Origin: Turritopsis dohrnii
Lineage: Eukaryota > Cnidaria > Hydrozoa > Anthoathecata > Oceaniidae
NCBI GenBank assembly: GCA_027922465.2
Contig: BQMF02000051.1
Coordinates: 744,001-808,000 of the forward strand
Length of the DNA stretch: 64,000 bases
Reading direction: 5' to 3'
The position numbers and the translations under genes are program-made. The notes under the pieces were generated by a model. The model was not told the origin of the DNA, did no database searches, and saw only the letters and a list, made by a program, of their open reading frames with translations. This document shows, in pieces, positions 33,780-42,440 of this stretch (position 1 is its first letter; each line of letters begins with the position of its first letter).

Positions 33780-34057
33780 GCCTTCCAGCTATTCCTTATG
33801 AGTAGTAACAAAGCTGATCAATGGCGTAAAACTGTTCAAAATGAGATGGGATTCACTCATCAAATATTACACCTAGGATCGATCTTCCTGAAGGAAAAAA
33901 CGTAGTTGGTAGTCGTTGGGTTTTTAATGAGAAACGTGGTGAAGATGGTCAAATCAATAGACAGAAAGCTCGTCTTGTTATTCCTAAAAGCAAGGCATTT
34001 ACTTTGATGATACCTTCGCTCCTGCTGCCAAATATAATTCTATAAGGATTGTTTTAA
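33780..34057 (+). pseudogene. Ty1/copia reverse transcriptase, upstream part
   Basis: Reads ADQWRKTVQNEM, then LPEGKNVVGSRWVFNEKRGE, DGQINRQKARLV and, after short deletions, DDTFAPAAKYNSIRIVL: the N-terminal fingers of a copia-type RT. The reading is resumed exactly at 40833 (TIANELNLDVHQM), showing that one element was split by the 6.77-kb insertion. Coding sequence may begin as early as 33600. Confidence 0.85.
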
Positions 34058-34258
34058 AGGGGAAGTCTACTAAAAAATGAAATAACAGATTTTGTGTTTT
34101 ATCTGTACTCAAACATAAGAAGAACAAAAAAAATACATATTCAGTGTTCGTTTACTCTCCAAAACATTTAAATTCCCCGCCATCAGGCTCTTGATTTACT
34201 ACGGAAAATACGAGTAGCAAAAGTTTTCAAGAGAACTGGGTCCAAGTACACTGTATGA

Positions 34259-34275
34259 TGTCACGTCGTGCAAGA
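34259..34275 (+). promoter_or_regulatory. Left subterminal motif of the TTAA transposon
   Basis: TGTCACGTCGTGCAAGA starts 202 bp from the left end, about 80 bp before the THAP ATG. The right end has TACGTCACGTCGTGCAAGA at the mirrored distance. The CACGTC core resembles CRE-like sites. Could be a transposase-binding site, a paired promoter element, or the surviving part of a longer TIR. Confidence 0.6.
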
Positions 34276-34356
34276 AACAAATCTCGTATGCGAAGAATTC
34301 AGTGAAGCAAAAAAATATCTTTTTCGTAAAAGTTTATAATAAGTTCTTGTGAAATT

Positions 34357-35220
34357 ATGGTTAGCTGTTCAGCTAATAGATTGTACGAATCGGTCCAAGC
34401 GAAAGGAAAAAGAAATTAGTTTCCATCGAATTCCATCTAAACAACACAAAGATATTCGAAAGCAATGGCTACATAACATACGATGTGACGGAACACTTCC
34501 CATAGTTTTTACATCTGTTCAGATCACTTTGAAGAGCATTGCTTCGTACGTGACTTGCAGGATATGAACACACCATATTTACAAACTTGCTTTAGATATT
34601 GTATGTCATTCCCACTATAAAGGATGATGAATACTGTAAAGTGCTTTTATTATCTTTCTACCGTACGCCTATTTTCAAAACAATTTCTGTATTCTACAAC
34701 GATTGCAAAGAAATACACCTTTCCCGAATTTCTGTTTAAATGCCGAGTTAATGCTTAGTTATCAAGTTTAGCCTCGTTTCTATGTTTTTTTTTTGTTTTT
34801 CTAATTTCATAATGTTTTCAGTAAGTAATAGTTGCTCGTTCTTTCAGTTCCCCAGTGGAATAATTAGAAGTGATTAAGAGTTTGAAAAAGAGGCGAAACT
34901 TAGAGGCTAGGCTATAACACGGTGTTTAAACAGAAATTCGGGAAAGGTCTATTGATTTCGAATGAAACATGTGCACCCACGTGAATATCAAAAAAAGAAA
35001 ACTGGGGGGAGTTACTAGAGATATTGTAAAACCTGGTTTTTACACATTTCAATTTTATACTATTTTTCAATCTTTCTTTCTTTTTTCTTGATTGGCTGAA
35101 CTTTTGGGAATCAAGAGAAACCGTCGTCTTAAGGAAGATGCTGTGCCCACACTATTTACTTTCTCTTCTGAGAAAAAACGCCGCCAATCTTCAGAAAACT
35201 TGATATCATTCACGATATAA
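34357..35220 (+). pseudogene. THAP-domain gene, frameshifted, two exons
   Basis: Exon 1 starts MVSCSA at 34357, shifts to a frame reading CTNRSKRKEKEISFHRIPSK and QWLHNIRCDG, then shifts again to FYICSDHFEEHCFVRDLQ: the C2CH zinc-dependent DNA-binding THAP domain (Cys pair, later CxxH). Exon 2, about 35105-35220, reads GIKRNRRLKEDAVPTLFTF; AVPTxF is the conserved end motif of THAP domains. A 232-bp MITE lies in the intron. Two frameshifts make it inactive as read. In the intact element it would presumably bind the transposon ends. Confidence 0.75.
34717..34948. mobile_element. 232-bp MITE in the THAP intron
   Basis: ACCTTTCCCGAATTTCTGTT and AACAGAAATTCGGGAAAGGT are perfect inverted repeats extended by TAAA/TTTA. 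Non-coding, nested in the TTAA transposon. Confidence 0.8.
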
Positions 35221-35265
35221 ACAAAATTAAACTAACTCGTTTTTTTTCTCCAACGTCTTGCCCCC

Positions 35266-38200
35266 TTATTCGTTAATAGCTGCCATGGCTGTTTCCAAAA
35301 CGGGCTGTTCAATGCAGATCGTATGAAAACCAGGCGCTTTGGTTATGCACTTAATAAAACTTTCAAAATATGAGATTGTCTCCTTTGGCGTTTCTGCTTC
35401 ACCATCTGTGGGGATTTTAAGGGCCAAAAACTTACCCATAACTTAATATGAGAGACAAAATAAACCACCCACGATGGAGTTTATTGTGTACACTTTCCAT
35501 AAAAAATATCATAGTAGTCAAATTTTAATGACAAGCCCGCGAATTTTACAATTTAGAAAAGCTCCTGAAAATCTGGGTGAATAACTATTCCACTTCTTTG
35601 TAGTTTTTCGCAGACATCTGAAGTTTTGCCACAAGAGGAATAACAATACAGATTACAACATAATAATTATCTTTCCTTTAAATTTTATTACACATTGCAA
35701 ACATTTTTTTAAAAAAAGTTACGAAGCTTCAAAGTACAGCTATTTTCACCTGTCATGGCGGACAACACCACACTTCACGAAATTGCTTTAGAAAAACTTT
35801 GTCGTGTTTGTGGAAATATGCTTTCCTACAGAGTAAAGTATGCTACATCAGAGCACATTAACAACCTTTGCTCAGCTTTCAATACAGATTTCGCAAGAGA
35901 TACAGTTAACATTCACCCCAAATATTTTTGCAATAACTGTCTAGCAAAAATGAATAACTTATTGAAACGTGGCTCCATTCACCAGTTAATTCCTGTAGAA
36001 TGGAAAGAGCACATCACAGACAACTGTGGCACGTGCGACTTATTTAAGAGCAAAGGAAAAGGTGGAAGACCCAGCAAAAGTCGAAAAAAAGGTCGCCCTA
36101 TCAAACCCTTGAAAGTAGAACACAACTGGTCACCATCGTTAATCAACGAACTACATGTCATGTCGCTACAGCAACTTATTGATTTAAACCTGACAGATTT
36201 TTCAATCTCAATCAACAATCATATCAGACCTTACATCTGCGAAATTTGCCAAGACTTGATCAAAAGGCCTTTGTATATTGTTAACTGCAACCATACTTTC
36301 TGTGGAGTTTGCCTAACATCACATTTAAAAACAGATAGCAATTGCCCTTCTTGCCACAATTATATTTCACCCAATATCAACTCGATACAATCAGGACAAG
36401 TTCTTATTAACACCCTATTGATGCAGAATATAATGTGTTCCACCTGCAAAATTAATTTTTCAATAGATGGTTTCAAAGGTCACATTTGCAGAAAACCAGT
36501 CCTGACCACTAGTGACATTCTTAACATTAATCCCCATCAAGAAGTTCCTCAAGAGGTGACGGAGTGTATTACTCATGTTGTTGAAATTCAAATGGAGAAG
36601 TCGCAGTTACCTAACAATAGCATACAGCTTCCTACAAAAGGCTCTAAGGTAAAATACTCTACCATACTTAGACCAAAAAATCTAAAACAAATCAGTTTTG
36701 TTGTGAATGTGAGTGTGTATATGCATGTTTTTTTAAAATAAAAAAACACATCTATACAAATAAGAAAATGACGTACAACAATACCATAAAAAAATAATTG
36801 ATTTTCATGTCTGTAAACTATCCCAGTGGGCAAAAAGTCACTGCAGAGAAGTGCATTTGCTTTGAAATACTGTATAAACTTGTGCAAGATAGACTCCACC
36901 ACTTTGATTTTCAAAAAATATGCCCGCTGGGAAGGCAGTCCATGAACACAATATTTACTATTATATTTAATCTGCACAGATTTAAACACTTATGTAATTC
37001 TTATAGCCACTGACGATGGCACAGATTCGTATCCCTACGAAGCATTCAGATGTATCGAGCAGAAGAAGCGTGGAATGTAGGACAAAAACAGCTAAAGAAG
37101 TGATGTCTATGATAGCTGGCCCCAGTAATGGTGCAATTTCAACCCAAACTACTGCAATTATTCAAAGTCTAGACAAAAATGAACGTGAAAATATTGTGAA
37201 AAAACTGAAAGTACAAGCTACCATTCCTCCACAGCATGTCGCTGCAATGAAGTCGTCCCTCAATATTCCCTGGAATCAGTTTCGACAAATTTCTCGTTGG
37301 TTGAATACTTTCAACGTCAAAATATCATCTGAAAAGGAGACTAGAAAAATTGCAACAGAATGGGTAGGGGCTGGGTTGAATGCTGAATTAGCGCCATTAG
37401 CTAAAACTAATGGCACAAAATTGGAAGTCATCCTTATTCCATGGGCCTATCTTTACAACTTGGTTGGTCATTGCCTCAAACGTGTGTCGCTGTTAGAAAA
37501 ACGTCATCTTCTAGTACAGCACAGTTTCATTAATCTAAGTGAAATCCACATCAAAATAGGTGGAGACCATGGCGATAACAGCTTCAAGATGGGTTATCAA
37601 ATCGTAAATGTGAGAAATCCCAACAGGCCAGATAATACAGTCATATTTTCGATATTTGAAGCCAAAGACACCACCAGCAACCTGCGAATATGCTTAAAAC
37701 GGTTTAAAACACAAGTTGCAATGTTACAGAAAGCAAAGTTTCAGAACCAAAACTTCCGTGTGTTCATGTATGGCGATTATGCGTTTCTTTGTGCTATGTA
37801 CGGATTGTCTGGTGCGAATGGTAAGTGTCCAATCTACAATAAAAAACATAAATATCCCAAATCTGTACTAAATAACATATCTATAAATATCCCTCTACTG
37901 CATTATAACAATTTCAGGTCGTCATCCATGCTTGTGGTGTTTAGCGACACGGGAGGACATGCAGTCTCCGGCTTTTGCAAGAGGAACCCTCGAAAACTTG
38001 AAAAATCACCATGAGGCCTATGTTTATGCAGGAAAAAACGTTAAGAATGCTAAAAATCATTTTAATGTAATTGAAGAGCAAATTCTTTAATATACCACTT
38101 AATCAGGTAAAGTTTTGTTTAATATATAATTAAGAAGCATTTTAAATGAAGAAAAAATTAAGATGAGACTCACATTATTCTTTAAAGGTTGCCATTCCGG

Positions 38201-40574
38201 GATTGCATCTTTCGTTGGGGATTTATGGAAAAATTTTCAACATGTTGGAAATGGAATGTCATTTGCTTGACATTGAAATGGCCACACTAAAATCAACAAA
38301 TGTGCAGGGAACAAAAGACATAGAATATCAACTTTACATTGAAAAAAGAGCAGATCTGGAGGAAGCAAAGGAGGCAATAGTAGATGAGATCGATTTGATA
38401 AAAGAGGAACTGGGATATCACCTGATAGCTGGTGGAAGTCAAGATGTTGTTTCCACATATTATATTCCCAGAGTGAATGAGCTTGAATCTGAAAAGAACA
38501 AAATCGAAAATTCAATCAATGACCTTATCAAGAATTTACCAACTGGTTCTGGTCCGTGTGCTTTGTCTCTTGATGCCAGTTTGCAGAAAATAAATATCGA
38601 AAGACAAGCATACCATGGCAAAAGCTTCATTGGGAATCATGTCCATAAGTTGCTAAAAGTAAGATATGATAAATTGTTAATGATAGGACTCATTTCATAG
38701 AGAAGCTTGAGGTCAACTAAAAGTTTATAAGAAATTTTTTATTTTAGAAAGAAAATACCATACATATATGGAGTGGGATCATCAAAGCTGTTCAGAATCA
38801 TACAGACGATGAACACATTCTTGAAAAAGCACAGGCAATGTGCGATAAATTTACAAAGTTAATCGAGAAGTATTCTGTTTGTGACAACATTTTCAATAGC
38901 TCCAGGGAGTTAAGTGCAAGTGAAATTGACTCCCTTGGTAATAATAATTTTTTAAGAAAATTCACAAAATATTACCACTGGTTGTAATATATTTTTTATT
39001 TTCCTTTTTAGAAATTGCGATCAATTCATTTTTAAACTTTTTGCGACTGAACTGGCCTAAAATCAATATCAGTCCAAAGTTACATATTTTAGAAGACCAC
39101 GTCGTGCCATTTGTTAGACAATGGAAATCAGCTTGCGGAGTTTACGGTGAGCAAGGTGGGGAAAGTCTTCACCATCAATTTAAGCAGATGAAAGCCAGGT
39201 GAATATTTCAACTCATTACTTATATACACGGAACACTATGAATTTTATCAAAGTTTCAAATGCATATTTAACCTTAGGTACGTAGGAGTGAAAGATCCAG
39301 TAAAACGTCTAGAATATACAATGAAACAGCATTTGCTAGCTTCATGTCCTGATGCACAAGTAATCAAACCAAAAGTGAAGAAAAGGAAACGAGAAGAATA
39401 GTTTAGAATAGTTTCCTTAGGGGACGAAAATTTTGTTAGAGTAGAACGTCAGAGTGAGTAATCGTATAAAAATCAGCGAATAACACTAAGTGAGGATGTT
39501 TTTTGATATTATAGCTAATCACTTAAATCAGAAGTAAATATTAGAGGTATTATTTATTCAGTTTTGACTTTTAGCAACAACAAAACTTTAGTTTGTCACG
39601 GAATTTCATAGAATTGTGTATATGAAAATCAGGAAAGTTTGAGATATTGTAAAAAGTTTAAAAAAATGTTTGCACTATACCTTTTGGAAATATCTTTTAT
39701 TAGCCATCAAACTACCATACAACATCAGTCAAATCCATGAGAAAACTTTGAAAGTTGAAAAATTGACCCTCGTTTACCTTGACATAAATTTCAAGTCAGA
39801 AACAAACGATAAAAGTCATAGCCATGCCAAAGCCTTACGCTCGCTCCCTGAACCTTAGATTCCTGTAAGCGAAGAAATGTGAACATGTGGTGAATCGTTC
39901 TGATATATTTTGCAACCAGTGAAATGAGAGATTTTCCAAAATTGGAAATACAAACTTCGTACCTAGGAATGTATAAAACCACGCGTGTTTCTACCATCTT
40001 TAAAAAAAGCCGTCGGACTTGGCGCATGCGTAAACTGAGTTTCGCTTCCGAAACAGCCGTGTCGTTACTACTATTTCAAAGAGGCTTAGTTTATTATTTG
40101 AAGTCAAAGGGAAAATGACCAACGATGGAGCATTTTTCATAGCATCGTAATTGACAAATCTGTGATGCGTGAAAGCGAGAGAAATAGTTAAAGTTGAAAG
40201 TTGAAAGAATTTCGAAAAAATCATAAAAGAAAATAAAAGTGTAATTAAACTTTATTACTCAAATATTTTGCATTTACCATCAAAGAAATCGTCTGGTATT
40301 TCATTAGACTCGACGCAATATATGCTTTCAGCTTCATTTGTCATATTTTGCACTCGCCGCCGCATTCGCACCATGAAATATTACCTATGCGAGAATTTGA
40401 TGCAGAAGAGCTGTTGTAACCGATGTAATCTTCATTACTACTTTCATCCGAGGAAACGATTGGTTCAAAATCATAAGGTTTCAGTTTTCTTACATCATTG
40501 GAAGAGGAAAATTCTTCATTAAACGAAAAATCATCAGTCCCGGAGTCCTCGCTGCTTGTTGACATTCCGCACAT
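35266..40574 (-). CDS. P2X7-C-terminal-like cysteine protein, two exons, antisense
   Basis: Exon 1 (40574-40278) starts MCGMSTSSEDSGTDDFSFNE, acidic and serine-rich, reaches RIGNISWCECGGEC, then after a 1-nt shift near 40353 NMTNEAESIYCVESNEIPDD, and ends at donor GTAAAT. Exon 2 (35405-35266) follows an acceptor CCCCACAG and reads DGEAETPKETISYFESFIKC, ITKAPGFHTICIEQPVLETA, stop. Exon lengths 297+140 plus one missing base give 146 codons, so the splice phase fits. WCxCG-C...C and GFHTICI match the P2X7-type C-terminal cytoplasmic module found in many cnidarian transposon proteins. The 4.9-kb intron encloses the complete RAG1-like gene on the other strand. The joining is inferred, not proven. 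Confidence 0.55.
35755..39401 (+). CDS. RAG1 N-terminal-like zinc protein fused to DDE-type transposase
   Basis: Seven exons: 35755-36708, 37007-37820, 37918-38106, 38188-38658, 38748-38937, 39012-39198, 39278-39401, all with GT/AG ends and matching phases, giving about 975 residues if one extra A near 38081 (exon 3) is discounted. Exon 1 (318 aa) follows the RAG1 N-terminus: C16-C19...H54...C59-C62 (IHPKYFCNNCLAKM), W83/H86...C91-C94, two GRP basic patches (104-115), a C3HC4 RING (C162 to C200) and a C2HC finger (C228, C231, H243, C245). Exons 2-7 look like an RNase H-fold transposase: IGGDHGDNSFKM (D505/D508), MYGDYAF (D575), RHPCLWCLA (zinc-type CxxC, 594-597) with HH at 620-621, GLHLSLGIYGKIFNMLE, and YGEQGGESLHHQF near residue 920. 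Which acidic residues are catalytic is inference. Known: RAG1 and molluscan N-RAG-TP share this N-terminal region. Confidence 0.8.
36822..36931. mobile_element. 110-bp MITE in intron 1 of the RAG1-like gene
   Basis: CCCAGTGGGCAAAAAGTCACTG at the left and TATGCCCGCTGGG at the right; the AAAAAGTCACTG block matches the copy at 1253-1372. It lies fully inside intron 1 (36709-37006), so it does not disturb the reading. Confidence 0.75.
39402..40277. other. 3' flank of the RAG1-like gene inside the transposon
   Basis: No further gene recognised. It lies in the presumed antisense intron. Confidence 0.4.
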
Positions 40575-40611
40575 TTATTTTTTCATGTGAATATCAACTT
40601 CTAGTTTACTC

Positions 40612-40630
40612 TCTTGCACGACGTGACGTA
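40612..40630 (-). promoter_or_regulatory. Right subterminal motif of the TTAA transposon
   Basis: On the minus strand TACGTCACGTCGTGCAAGA, 199-217 bp from the right end and 38 bp upstream of the ATG at 40574; mirror image of the left motif at 34259-34275. Confidence 0.6.
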
Positions 40631-40828
40631 ATTGCTTCGATTGGGGTCCAGGCTTTCGCTCTTTGCGCAACCGTATCAAAAACACAAGAATATGCTGAAC
40701 TTTTTCGACATGAAAATAACTGAAAAAATGTTTTTAAGTGATGTATTATATATTTTTTCTGTTTTATGGAGTATAATGTATCATTTTTAACAATTTCTGA
40801 AAATTTTTTTCAAAAGTAGACTTCCCCT

Positions 40829-42440
40829 TTAACCATTGCTAATGAGCTCAATCTTGATGTTCATCAAATGTTCAGCCGAAAGGTTTTGTCAATGATCCCA
40901 GCAAAGTTTGCAAGCGTCATGAAAGTGCCTATGTTTTGAAACAAGCTGCTAGTTTGTGGAATTTAAAAATCAATCGCCATTTGAAAGAAAATGGCTATAA
41001 TGCTAGTGATGCTGATCCATGTGTTTTATAACAAATGTGTGAAAGAGAATAACAAAATCTCTTTGATATTATTGCTGCATCTGTTGATGATGTTATTTTA
41101 GCATTTAATGATGTTGAACTTCTCGACCAGGAAAATAAGAATCTCGAGAATGAATGTGACATGGTTGACCAAGGTGAAATTAATTACATCCTTGGTATGT
41201 CAATTGAGCGAAATCGGAAAGGGGGTATTCTTCGAAGCAGCTTATTTAAAAAATGTGTTAAAGCGTTATTATTATGTTAAATATTTATACAGGTTGTACA
41301 GCTTCAGTATTAATATATACAAATATACAATATATACTGTTATCAATGCCGGACCTGTTGAAAATTAAAAATGAAAAAGAAAAGGAAGACTGGGAGCAAA
41401 TAGACTGCAAAATAGGGATGTTATGTAGTCAGGATAGGATAGGATAGGTTGAAAACTAATTACAAATAAAATATTTTTTGGTTTTATTTTTAAATAAAAT
41501 AAAAGATTTTTCATCTCTAATGTTTTGGGGCAACTTTTTGTATATAGTTGCCCCTTGGTAGAACGCTGACATTCGAAAAAATTCTGTACGTGCTCTTGCT
41601 CGTGGAATGGATGAGTGCAAGCCATTATCAACTACAATGGAGACTAGTAAACTTTTTGGAAAAATGCCCACAGAACATCACCCTGTCAATCCCATTACCA
41701 TAAAAAAGATTACAAAGCTGCTATTGGATCATTCATCTATGCTTCAATCGGTACACGACCCAATCTATCTTATGCAGTTGGAGTCCTAAGTCCCTTTATG
41801 TCGAAATCTGACCAAGAACACTGGAAAGAAACCAAACGTGTGTTTCGCTACATAAAAGGGACATTGAATTATTGTTTAGAGTTTGTTGCATCAAATACAA
41901 ATGAAGTCAATTTGTCAGCTTACATGACGCTGATTGGACAGGTGATAAGATATCAAGAAAATCGACATCTGGGTACGTCTTTCAGATTGGAGGATCTCCA
42001 ATCACATGGCGATCACAGCGTCAATCTGTTATTGCATTGTCTTCCACAGAAGCTGAGTACATTTACTAGCAGTCATGCTGCACATGAAGCAACTTGGCTT
42101 CGGCAATTATTGAACGACATTGGGTGCAAACAAACAACGCCAACGACATTGCATTAAGATAATCAAGGAACTATTGGACTTAGTAAAAATCCAAGATCGA
42201 TTTAAAGAATAAAGCACATCGATATTAAGTCGACAAGCTGTTGCAGAGAAAGTGATTAAAGTCGAATACTGTCCTACAGATAAGACGGTTGCGGATATCT
42301 TAACGATAAGGTCAAGTTTGAGAAACTCCGAATTATATTAGGTGTGAAATGACTGTCAGACTCGCCATACTCGTCAAGTGGGAGTGTTGTTAATAGATAA
42401 GTAGAATATTTTCGTATATTTAGTGTCCGTCGGTAAAATA
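40829..42440 (+). pseudogene. Ty1/copia RT-RNase H, downstream part, with LTR start
   Basis: Continues the copia frame: TIANELNLDVHQM, GFVNDPSKVCKRHESAYVLKQ, NGYNASDADPC, then IIAASVDDVILAF (the YVDD catalytic box, with Tyr changed to Ser), GEINYILGMSIERNRK. After a LINE insert (41268-41603) it resumes MDECKPLSTTMETSKLFGKM, SDQEHWKETKRVFRYIKGTL and ALSSTEAEYI-like RNase H sequence to about 42340. A purine tract GTCAAGTGGGAGTG (42373-42386) precedes the TGTTAATAG start of a 3' LTR, which is cut at 42440 by a pogo-like end. Multiple frameshifts; inactive. Confidence 0.85.
41268..41603 (-). mobile_element. LINE 3'-end fragment inside copia
   Basis: On the minus strand: RMSAFYQGATIYKKLPQNIR, then SFILFKNKTKKYFICN and stop. 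This is the usual C-terminal end of CR1/L2-like LINE reverse transcriptases (WNxLPxxIR...FKxxLKKYL). Followed by a TATCC microsatellite at 41438-41452 as 3' tail. It interrupts the copia reading VLKR...GMDECKP. Confidence 0.7.

Follow-up and report, generated by a model that had tools for sequence, protein, structure and literature searches.

A 64-kb window of the Turritopsis dohrnii genome (C51:744001-808000 of the 436-Mb assembly G000; coordinates below are positions in this window) contains a gene for a RAG1-like transposase lying between inverted repeats flanked by TTAA. The initial annotation took the gene and the TTAA ends for a single transposon. They almost certainly belong to two: the RAG1-like gene is that of a Chapaev element, and the TTAA ends are those of an unrelated Kolobok in which the Chapaev is nested. 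The RAG1 enzyme rearranges antibody genes, and the Chapaev transposase is its distant cousin. The nesting of two known kinds of element is ordinary, and the Chapaev copies are new members of Chapaev.

The boundaries of the inner element were found by comparison with other copies of the gene. Exon 2 has at least 173 matches in the assembly, with fragments counted separately, and ten places besides the window cover all 270 of its residues at 98-99%. Twenty stretches were fetched, 12 of them around the closest matches, and both ends could be read in ten near-identical copies (L009-L015, L017, L019 and L020), which are 99.08-99.53% identical to the window. Their homology spans window positions 35361 to about 40062 and does not extend to the TTAA ends. 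All ten have the ends CACGGCTGTTTC...GAAACAGCCGTG, i.e. CAC...GTG, and 4-bp duplications (TCGT, AATA, GCGG, TGGG, ACGG, TTTA, TAAC, GAGC, TTCT and ATCC). Three copies of a second group, 80% identical, have the duplications GCTA, CACA and ATCC. In total, CAC...GTG ends are present in 14 copies with both ends, and a target duplication, always of 4 bp, in 13 of these. The uninterrupted site of L013 is the repeat that flanks L010. Other copies retain one end (the right in L016 and L018, the left in L022), and the ends of L026-L028 came from a search in which CAC/GTG and a duplication were preconditions, so that these three were left out of the duplication count. The 960-residue frame is open in six of the ten near-identical copies, the exceptions being L009, L010, L019 and L020. 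The L020 copy is 5481 bp long and has about 720 extra bases in exon 6. The initial annotation had itself noted that copies with different boundaries would separate the gene from the TTAA ends, and such are the boundaries found. The window keeps the following parts of the Chapaev element:

35361..40061, plus strand: Chapaev element, lacking its left end (its first 59 bp and the adjoining Kolobok sequence), by comparison with other copies
40023..40045, minus strand: second conserved block, separated by 4 bp from the terminal block of the right end, from the alignment of ends
40050..40061, unstranded: right terminal repeat, GAAACAGCCGTG, from other copies
40062..40065, unstranded: right copy of the 4-bp target duplication, TCGT, which is single at the uninterrupted Kolobok site

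The outer element provides the complementary evidence. The 771 bases to the right of the Chapaev match 21 other genomic places over their whole length at 93-97%. In all 19 Kolobok loci fetched, the Kolobok sequence runs across the site without the Chapaev, and 18 of them (all except L032) contain the exact uninterrupted-site string with a single TCGT. Both ends lie inside the fetched stretch at 12 of the 19, and all 12 copies are flanked by TTAA with differing neighbouring bases. These copies are only 1905-1931 bp long, and the outer element is therefore a short Kolobok derivative. In the window its features are:

34054..34071, plus strand: left end, TTAA target duplication and 14-bp terminal inverted repeat AGGGGAAGTCTACT (perfect repeat, other Kolobok copies)
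34343..34567, plus strand: decayed THAP domain at the start of the Kolobok transposase gene (Pfam THAP, 29.9 bits)
34715..34950, unstranded: foldback insertion of about 236 bp (arms 34702-34779 and 34886-34963)
35137..35157, plus strand: DAVPTLF box after the THAP domain, as in Kolobok transposases (translation)
40341..40574, minus strand: decayed KolX gene, P2X7-ballast-like (through an intact homologue in L045)
40815..40832, plus strand: right end, 14-bp inverted repeat and TTAA (perfect repeat, other Kolobok copies)

The TTAA sites and 14-bp repeats of the initial annotation are real: the inverted repeat is perfect over 18 nt, TTAA included, and a 23-base left-end pattern, with up to three mismatches allowed, has a single match in the window and none in 100 shuffled versions. 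A subterminal pair of repeats lies at 34255-34284 and 40603-40632. The copia-like frame described as interrupted is indeed split by the outer element; when one TTAA is kept, the flanks are open and read ...AAKYNSIRIVLTIANELNLDVHQM... What did not hold is the attribution of the TTAA target and the AGGGGAAG ends to the gene, since they belong to the Kolobok that hosts the Chapaev. Described hallmarks of Kolobok are TTAA, AGGRR ends and a THAP domain with an AVPTIF box behind it in the transposase (PMC6004289), and Kol0 elements are reported to have a gene for KolX as well, a protein akin to the C-terminal ballast domain of P2X7 (PMC9587614). The outer element has the TTAA duplication and 5'-RR ends (in the window and in 12 of the 19 other loci), the THAP domain and, through the L045 homologue, KolX. 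The corresponding THAP stretch of copy L030 scores 44.9 bits. The window KolX remnant has no Pfam match of its own; at L045:1694-2017 (minus strand) there is an intact 107-amino-acid KolX that matches Pfam P2RX7_C at 28.3 bits (cut-off 23.5). Shared with the Kol0 lineage are thus the TTAA duplication, 5'-AG ends, THAP with an AVPT[IL]F box and KolX (PMC9587614, PMC6004289); Xenopus tropicalis Tr2, a Kolobok, begins AGGGGAACTATCATGA, likewise with 5'-AG (PMC6004289). The outer element differs in being short, in having no recognised catalytic domain and in carrying the Chapaev and the foldback insert. The arms of the latter, 78 nt long, are 77% complementary; the insert is absent (34714 adjoins 34951) from 13 of the 19 fetched Kolobok loci, and the other six do not span the site.

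At the left junction in the window, the Kolobok sequence stops at about 35355 and that of the Chapaev starts at 35361. The first 59 bp of the Chapaev have been lost, along with the left target duplication and about 105 bp of Kolobok. In the window alone, the flanks of the gene contain no CAC...GTG ends with a 4- or 5-bp duplication and no convincing repeat, because the left Chapaev end is deleted. Two candidates for the ends of a nested element were rejected. A degenerate CATGGCTGTTTCC at 35284, considered as a mutated left end, lies in a stretch that aligns with Kolobok copies. An inner inverted repeat (35696-35713 and 39657-39674) brackets the transposase gene and is perfect over 18 nt, whereas shuffling the two flanks of the gene 60 times gave no more than 14; it is internal to the Chapaev in other copies, and is possibly a chance occurrence.

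The gene itself has seven exons:

35755..36648, plus strand: exon 1, Chapa/RAG1-N-like zinc region and C3HC4 RING (Pfam, profile searches, copy alignment)
37007..37820, plus strand: exon 2, DUF1280 with the first and second catalytic Asp (Pfam, copy and homologue alignments)
37918..38106, plus strand: exon 3, containing CLWC as the C(2)C motif; in the window copy its frame is broken (copy alignment)
38188..38658, plus strand: exon 4, with the PGLH motif; its long insertion is modelled as helical in the relative P0002 (copy alignment, structure model)
38748..38937, plus strand: exon 5 (copy alignment)
39012..39198, plus strand: exon 6, with KLHILEDH as the H(4)H motif and GEQGGES as the region of the catalytic Glu (copy and homologue alignments)
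39278..39401, plus strand: exon 7 and stop codon (copy alignment)

The exon structure proposed initially is borne out by splice dinucleotides that are conserved in 12 to 14 of the 14 rows of the alignment, the window being one of them. The gene in the window is not intact, however. Compared with 12 of the 13 other aligned copies (the exception, L024, has no exon 3), its exon 3 is short by 14 nt, and this breaks the frame. Because of this and the missing left end, the window copy is probably immobile. Comparison between the two sequence groups (L010 with L023 and with L025, gapped codons omitted) gave ratios of nonsynonymous to synonymous substitution (dN/dS) of 0.08-0.09 for exon 2, 0.22-0.23 for exon 4 and 0.16-0.17 for exon 1, the last value arguing that the RAG1-N-like exon is maintained by selection.

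Exon 1 scores 39.7 bits for the C3HC4 RING and 31.2 bits for RAG1_imp_bd (cut-off 23.3), and exon 2 scores 53.7 bits for DUF1280 (cut-off 25) in Pfam. With exon 1 alone as the query, residues 38-246 align with mouse RAG1 154-375 (E 1.4e-7) and residues 38-94 with the solved RAG1 N-terminal structure 21wb (E 3.8e-4); in the same search, the RINGs of COP1 (E 2e-8) and RING2 slightly outrank RAG1. Judged by these alignments to mouse RAG1 and 21wb, the likeness of exon 1 to RAG1 goes past the RING, as initially suggested, and the fusion of a RAG1-N-like zinc region to a DDE core in a mobile element that is not a Transib likewise stands, in the form of RAG1_imp_bd with the DUF1280 of Chapaev. The proposed protein search, made with the spliced window protein (X at the frame break), returned 33 homologues, from sources including Hydra vulgaris, Lytechinus pictus, Ptychodera flava, Elysia marginata and Diadema antillarum. 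Pfam matches among them (E <= 0.01) are to DUF1280 in 31, RAG1_imp_bd in nine and zf-C3HC4 in six; many of the 33 are too short upstream of the core to contain the zinc/RING head. A profile of 18 homologues matches RAG1 152-385 in the PDB (E 1.5e-11) and 21wb (E 3.4e-7). The motifs CLWC, PGLH and KLHILEDH are present in the window. Among the 33 homologues, C582, H649 and D563 are conserved in all, C585 in 32 and D493 in 31 (two gaps), while H886, H891, E908 and E912 are each kept in 30 (three gaps), E908 and E912 being two candidates for the catalytic Glu. The region between the RING and the core, at about residues 300-375 in the relative P0002, is probably NBD-like. RAG-like transposons have convergent RAG1-like and RAG2-like genes; in the Chapaev element there is no second long frame that could be a RAG2-like gene, and no search aimed at RAG2 was made.

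Several observations weigh against the nesting of a Chapaev with this RAG1-like gene in a Kolobok. The window copy has neither the left Chapaev end nor the left duplication, and the case for nesting at this site therefore rests on the right end and the other copies. L021, of the 80%-identical group, has two ends and no matching duplication. No Kolobok catalytic domain was recognised in the outer element of the window, and in the longer relative L045 a 237-amino-acid frame near KolX has no Pfam match. The profile of 18 homologues matches the N-terminal part of RAG1 in the PDB and not the RAG1 core. The predicted fold is that of P0002 and not of the window protein, to which P0002 is 32% identical.

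It is very improbable that the arrangement is a one-off composite, a Kolobok with Chapaev cargo that could spread both through Kolobok transposase supplied by another copy. In its favour, neither Kolobok end is damaged, and L045 is a longer Kolobok copy whose KolX is intact; against it, the composite does not recur at any of the 20 loci centred on Chapaev or the 19 other Kolobok loci examined. That a single TTAA-targeting transposon has its own transposase with a RAG1-N module, as the sharing of one interval by gene and TTAA ends and the lack of a Kolobok catalytic domain in the outer remnant might suggest, has next to no probability, given that all ten near-identical copies have CAC...GTG ends with 4-bp duplications and do not lie within Kolobok ends, and that the gene is absent from the site in all 19 other Kolobok loci fetched.

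The Chapaev-in-Kolobok nesting would have arisen in three steps. A non-autonomous Kolobok of the Kol0 type, with THAP and KolX remnants, would have inserted into a TTAA of the copia-like frame, and the Chapaev would then have inserted into a TCGT within that Kolobok. A later deletion would have removed the left end of the Chapaev; the frame break in exon 3 is also present. The Chapaev gene encodes a cut-and-paste transposase with a RAG1-like layout, consisting of the Chapa zinc region, the RING, probably the NBD-like region and an RNase H core with the DDE residues, C(2)C and H(4)H. This protein would bind the bipartite ends of the element and make staggered cuts that give rise to the 4-bp duplications.

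The asymmetric ends of the Chapaev are the part most worth pursuing. Each consists of the terminal block CACGGCTGTTTC followed by a 23-bp second block with the consensus GCGAAACTCAGTTTGCGCATGCG. The second block starts at +27 in 17 of 18 left ends (in L028 at +26, with a weaker motif picked by hand) and at +17 in 20 of 20 right ends, including that of the window. The spacer is thus 14 bp on the left and 4 bp on the right, a difference of about one helical turn. Among four representatives of three groups, invariant positions at the left end number 12 of 12 in the terminal block, 6 of 14 in the spacer and 20 of 23 in the second block; the corresponding figures at the right end are 12 of 12, 3 of 4 and 21 of 23. 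A genome-wide search for the end pattern with any spacer of 0-30 gave 137 matches, many of them related copies and not independent cases, and none in the reversed control. Spacers among the 100 matches listed were 4 (68), 14 (30), 3 (1) and 13 (1). The 10-bp difference is close to the 11 bp between the 12- and 23-bp spacers of recombination signal sequences (RSSs), and may matter for the pairing of ends; the spacers of ProtoRAG are given as 27/31 (PMC8289069).

DUF1280 has been described as the Chapaev transposase, in one clade with RAG1 (PMC3985635), and Chapaevs as ending in CAC...GTG and duplicating 3 to 4 bp of the target (PMC4079192). The element has the DUF1280 core, C(2)C, LH and H(4)H with D, D and E, CAC...GTG ends and the 4-bp duplication. 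Kapitonov and Koonin reported two Chapaev subgroups in which a Chapa domain is followed by a RING, as in RAG1 (PMC4411706), and here too the Chapa/RAG1-N zinc region is followed by a RING. The combination of RAG1-N and DUF1280 is therefore not new, Chapa with RING in Chapaev having been reported in 2015 (PMC4411706); zinc region, RING, DUF1280 core, CAC...GTG ends and 4-bp duplications are all shared with those elements. The available text of that report does not mention bipartite asymmetric ends for them. RAG1 and the RAG-like transposons differ in having a 5-bp duplication, and identity in the structural alignment is about 14%. Transib elements are described as having 5-bp duplications (PMC8355894), in contrast to the 4 bp here, no RAG1-N region (PMC7204232) and mostly symmetric ends (PMC8289069). 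The Chapaev ends start with CAC, as do those of Transib and the RSSs, and the initial suggestion that the RAG1-N module lies in a superfamily without CAC ends fails; what differs is 4-bp instead of 5-bp duplications. N-RAG-TP of Aplysia also carries RAG1-N-like sequence in a transposon (PMC8355894). Compared by its description, it is RAG1-N-like entirely, unlike the Chapaev here (PMC8355894). Our guess is that N-RAG-TP is itself a Chapaev.

These results remove the false lead of a RAG1-N module in a TTAA superfamily and return that module to the RAG/Transib/Chapaev clade. They agree with the 2015 proposal that the fusion of Chapa, RING and core goes back to a common ancestor (PMC4411706). Since the element is co-linear with RAG1 and has asymmetric ends in two parts, the age of the 12/23-rule layout, relative to RAG-like transposons, becomes testable. 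A more tentative idea, which we consider rather unlikely, is that these Chapaevs keep the whole RAG layout minus RAG2 in one element, namely N-terminal zinc modules, RING, NBD-like region, core and paired bipartite ends. If it is true that the NBD-like region binds the second block and that only unequal ends pair, a 12/23-type rule would either predate RAG-like transposons or have arisen independently, and the RAG1 N-terminus would need no separate donor such as N-RAG-TP.
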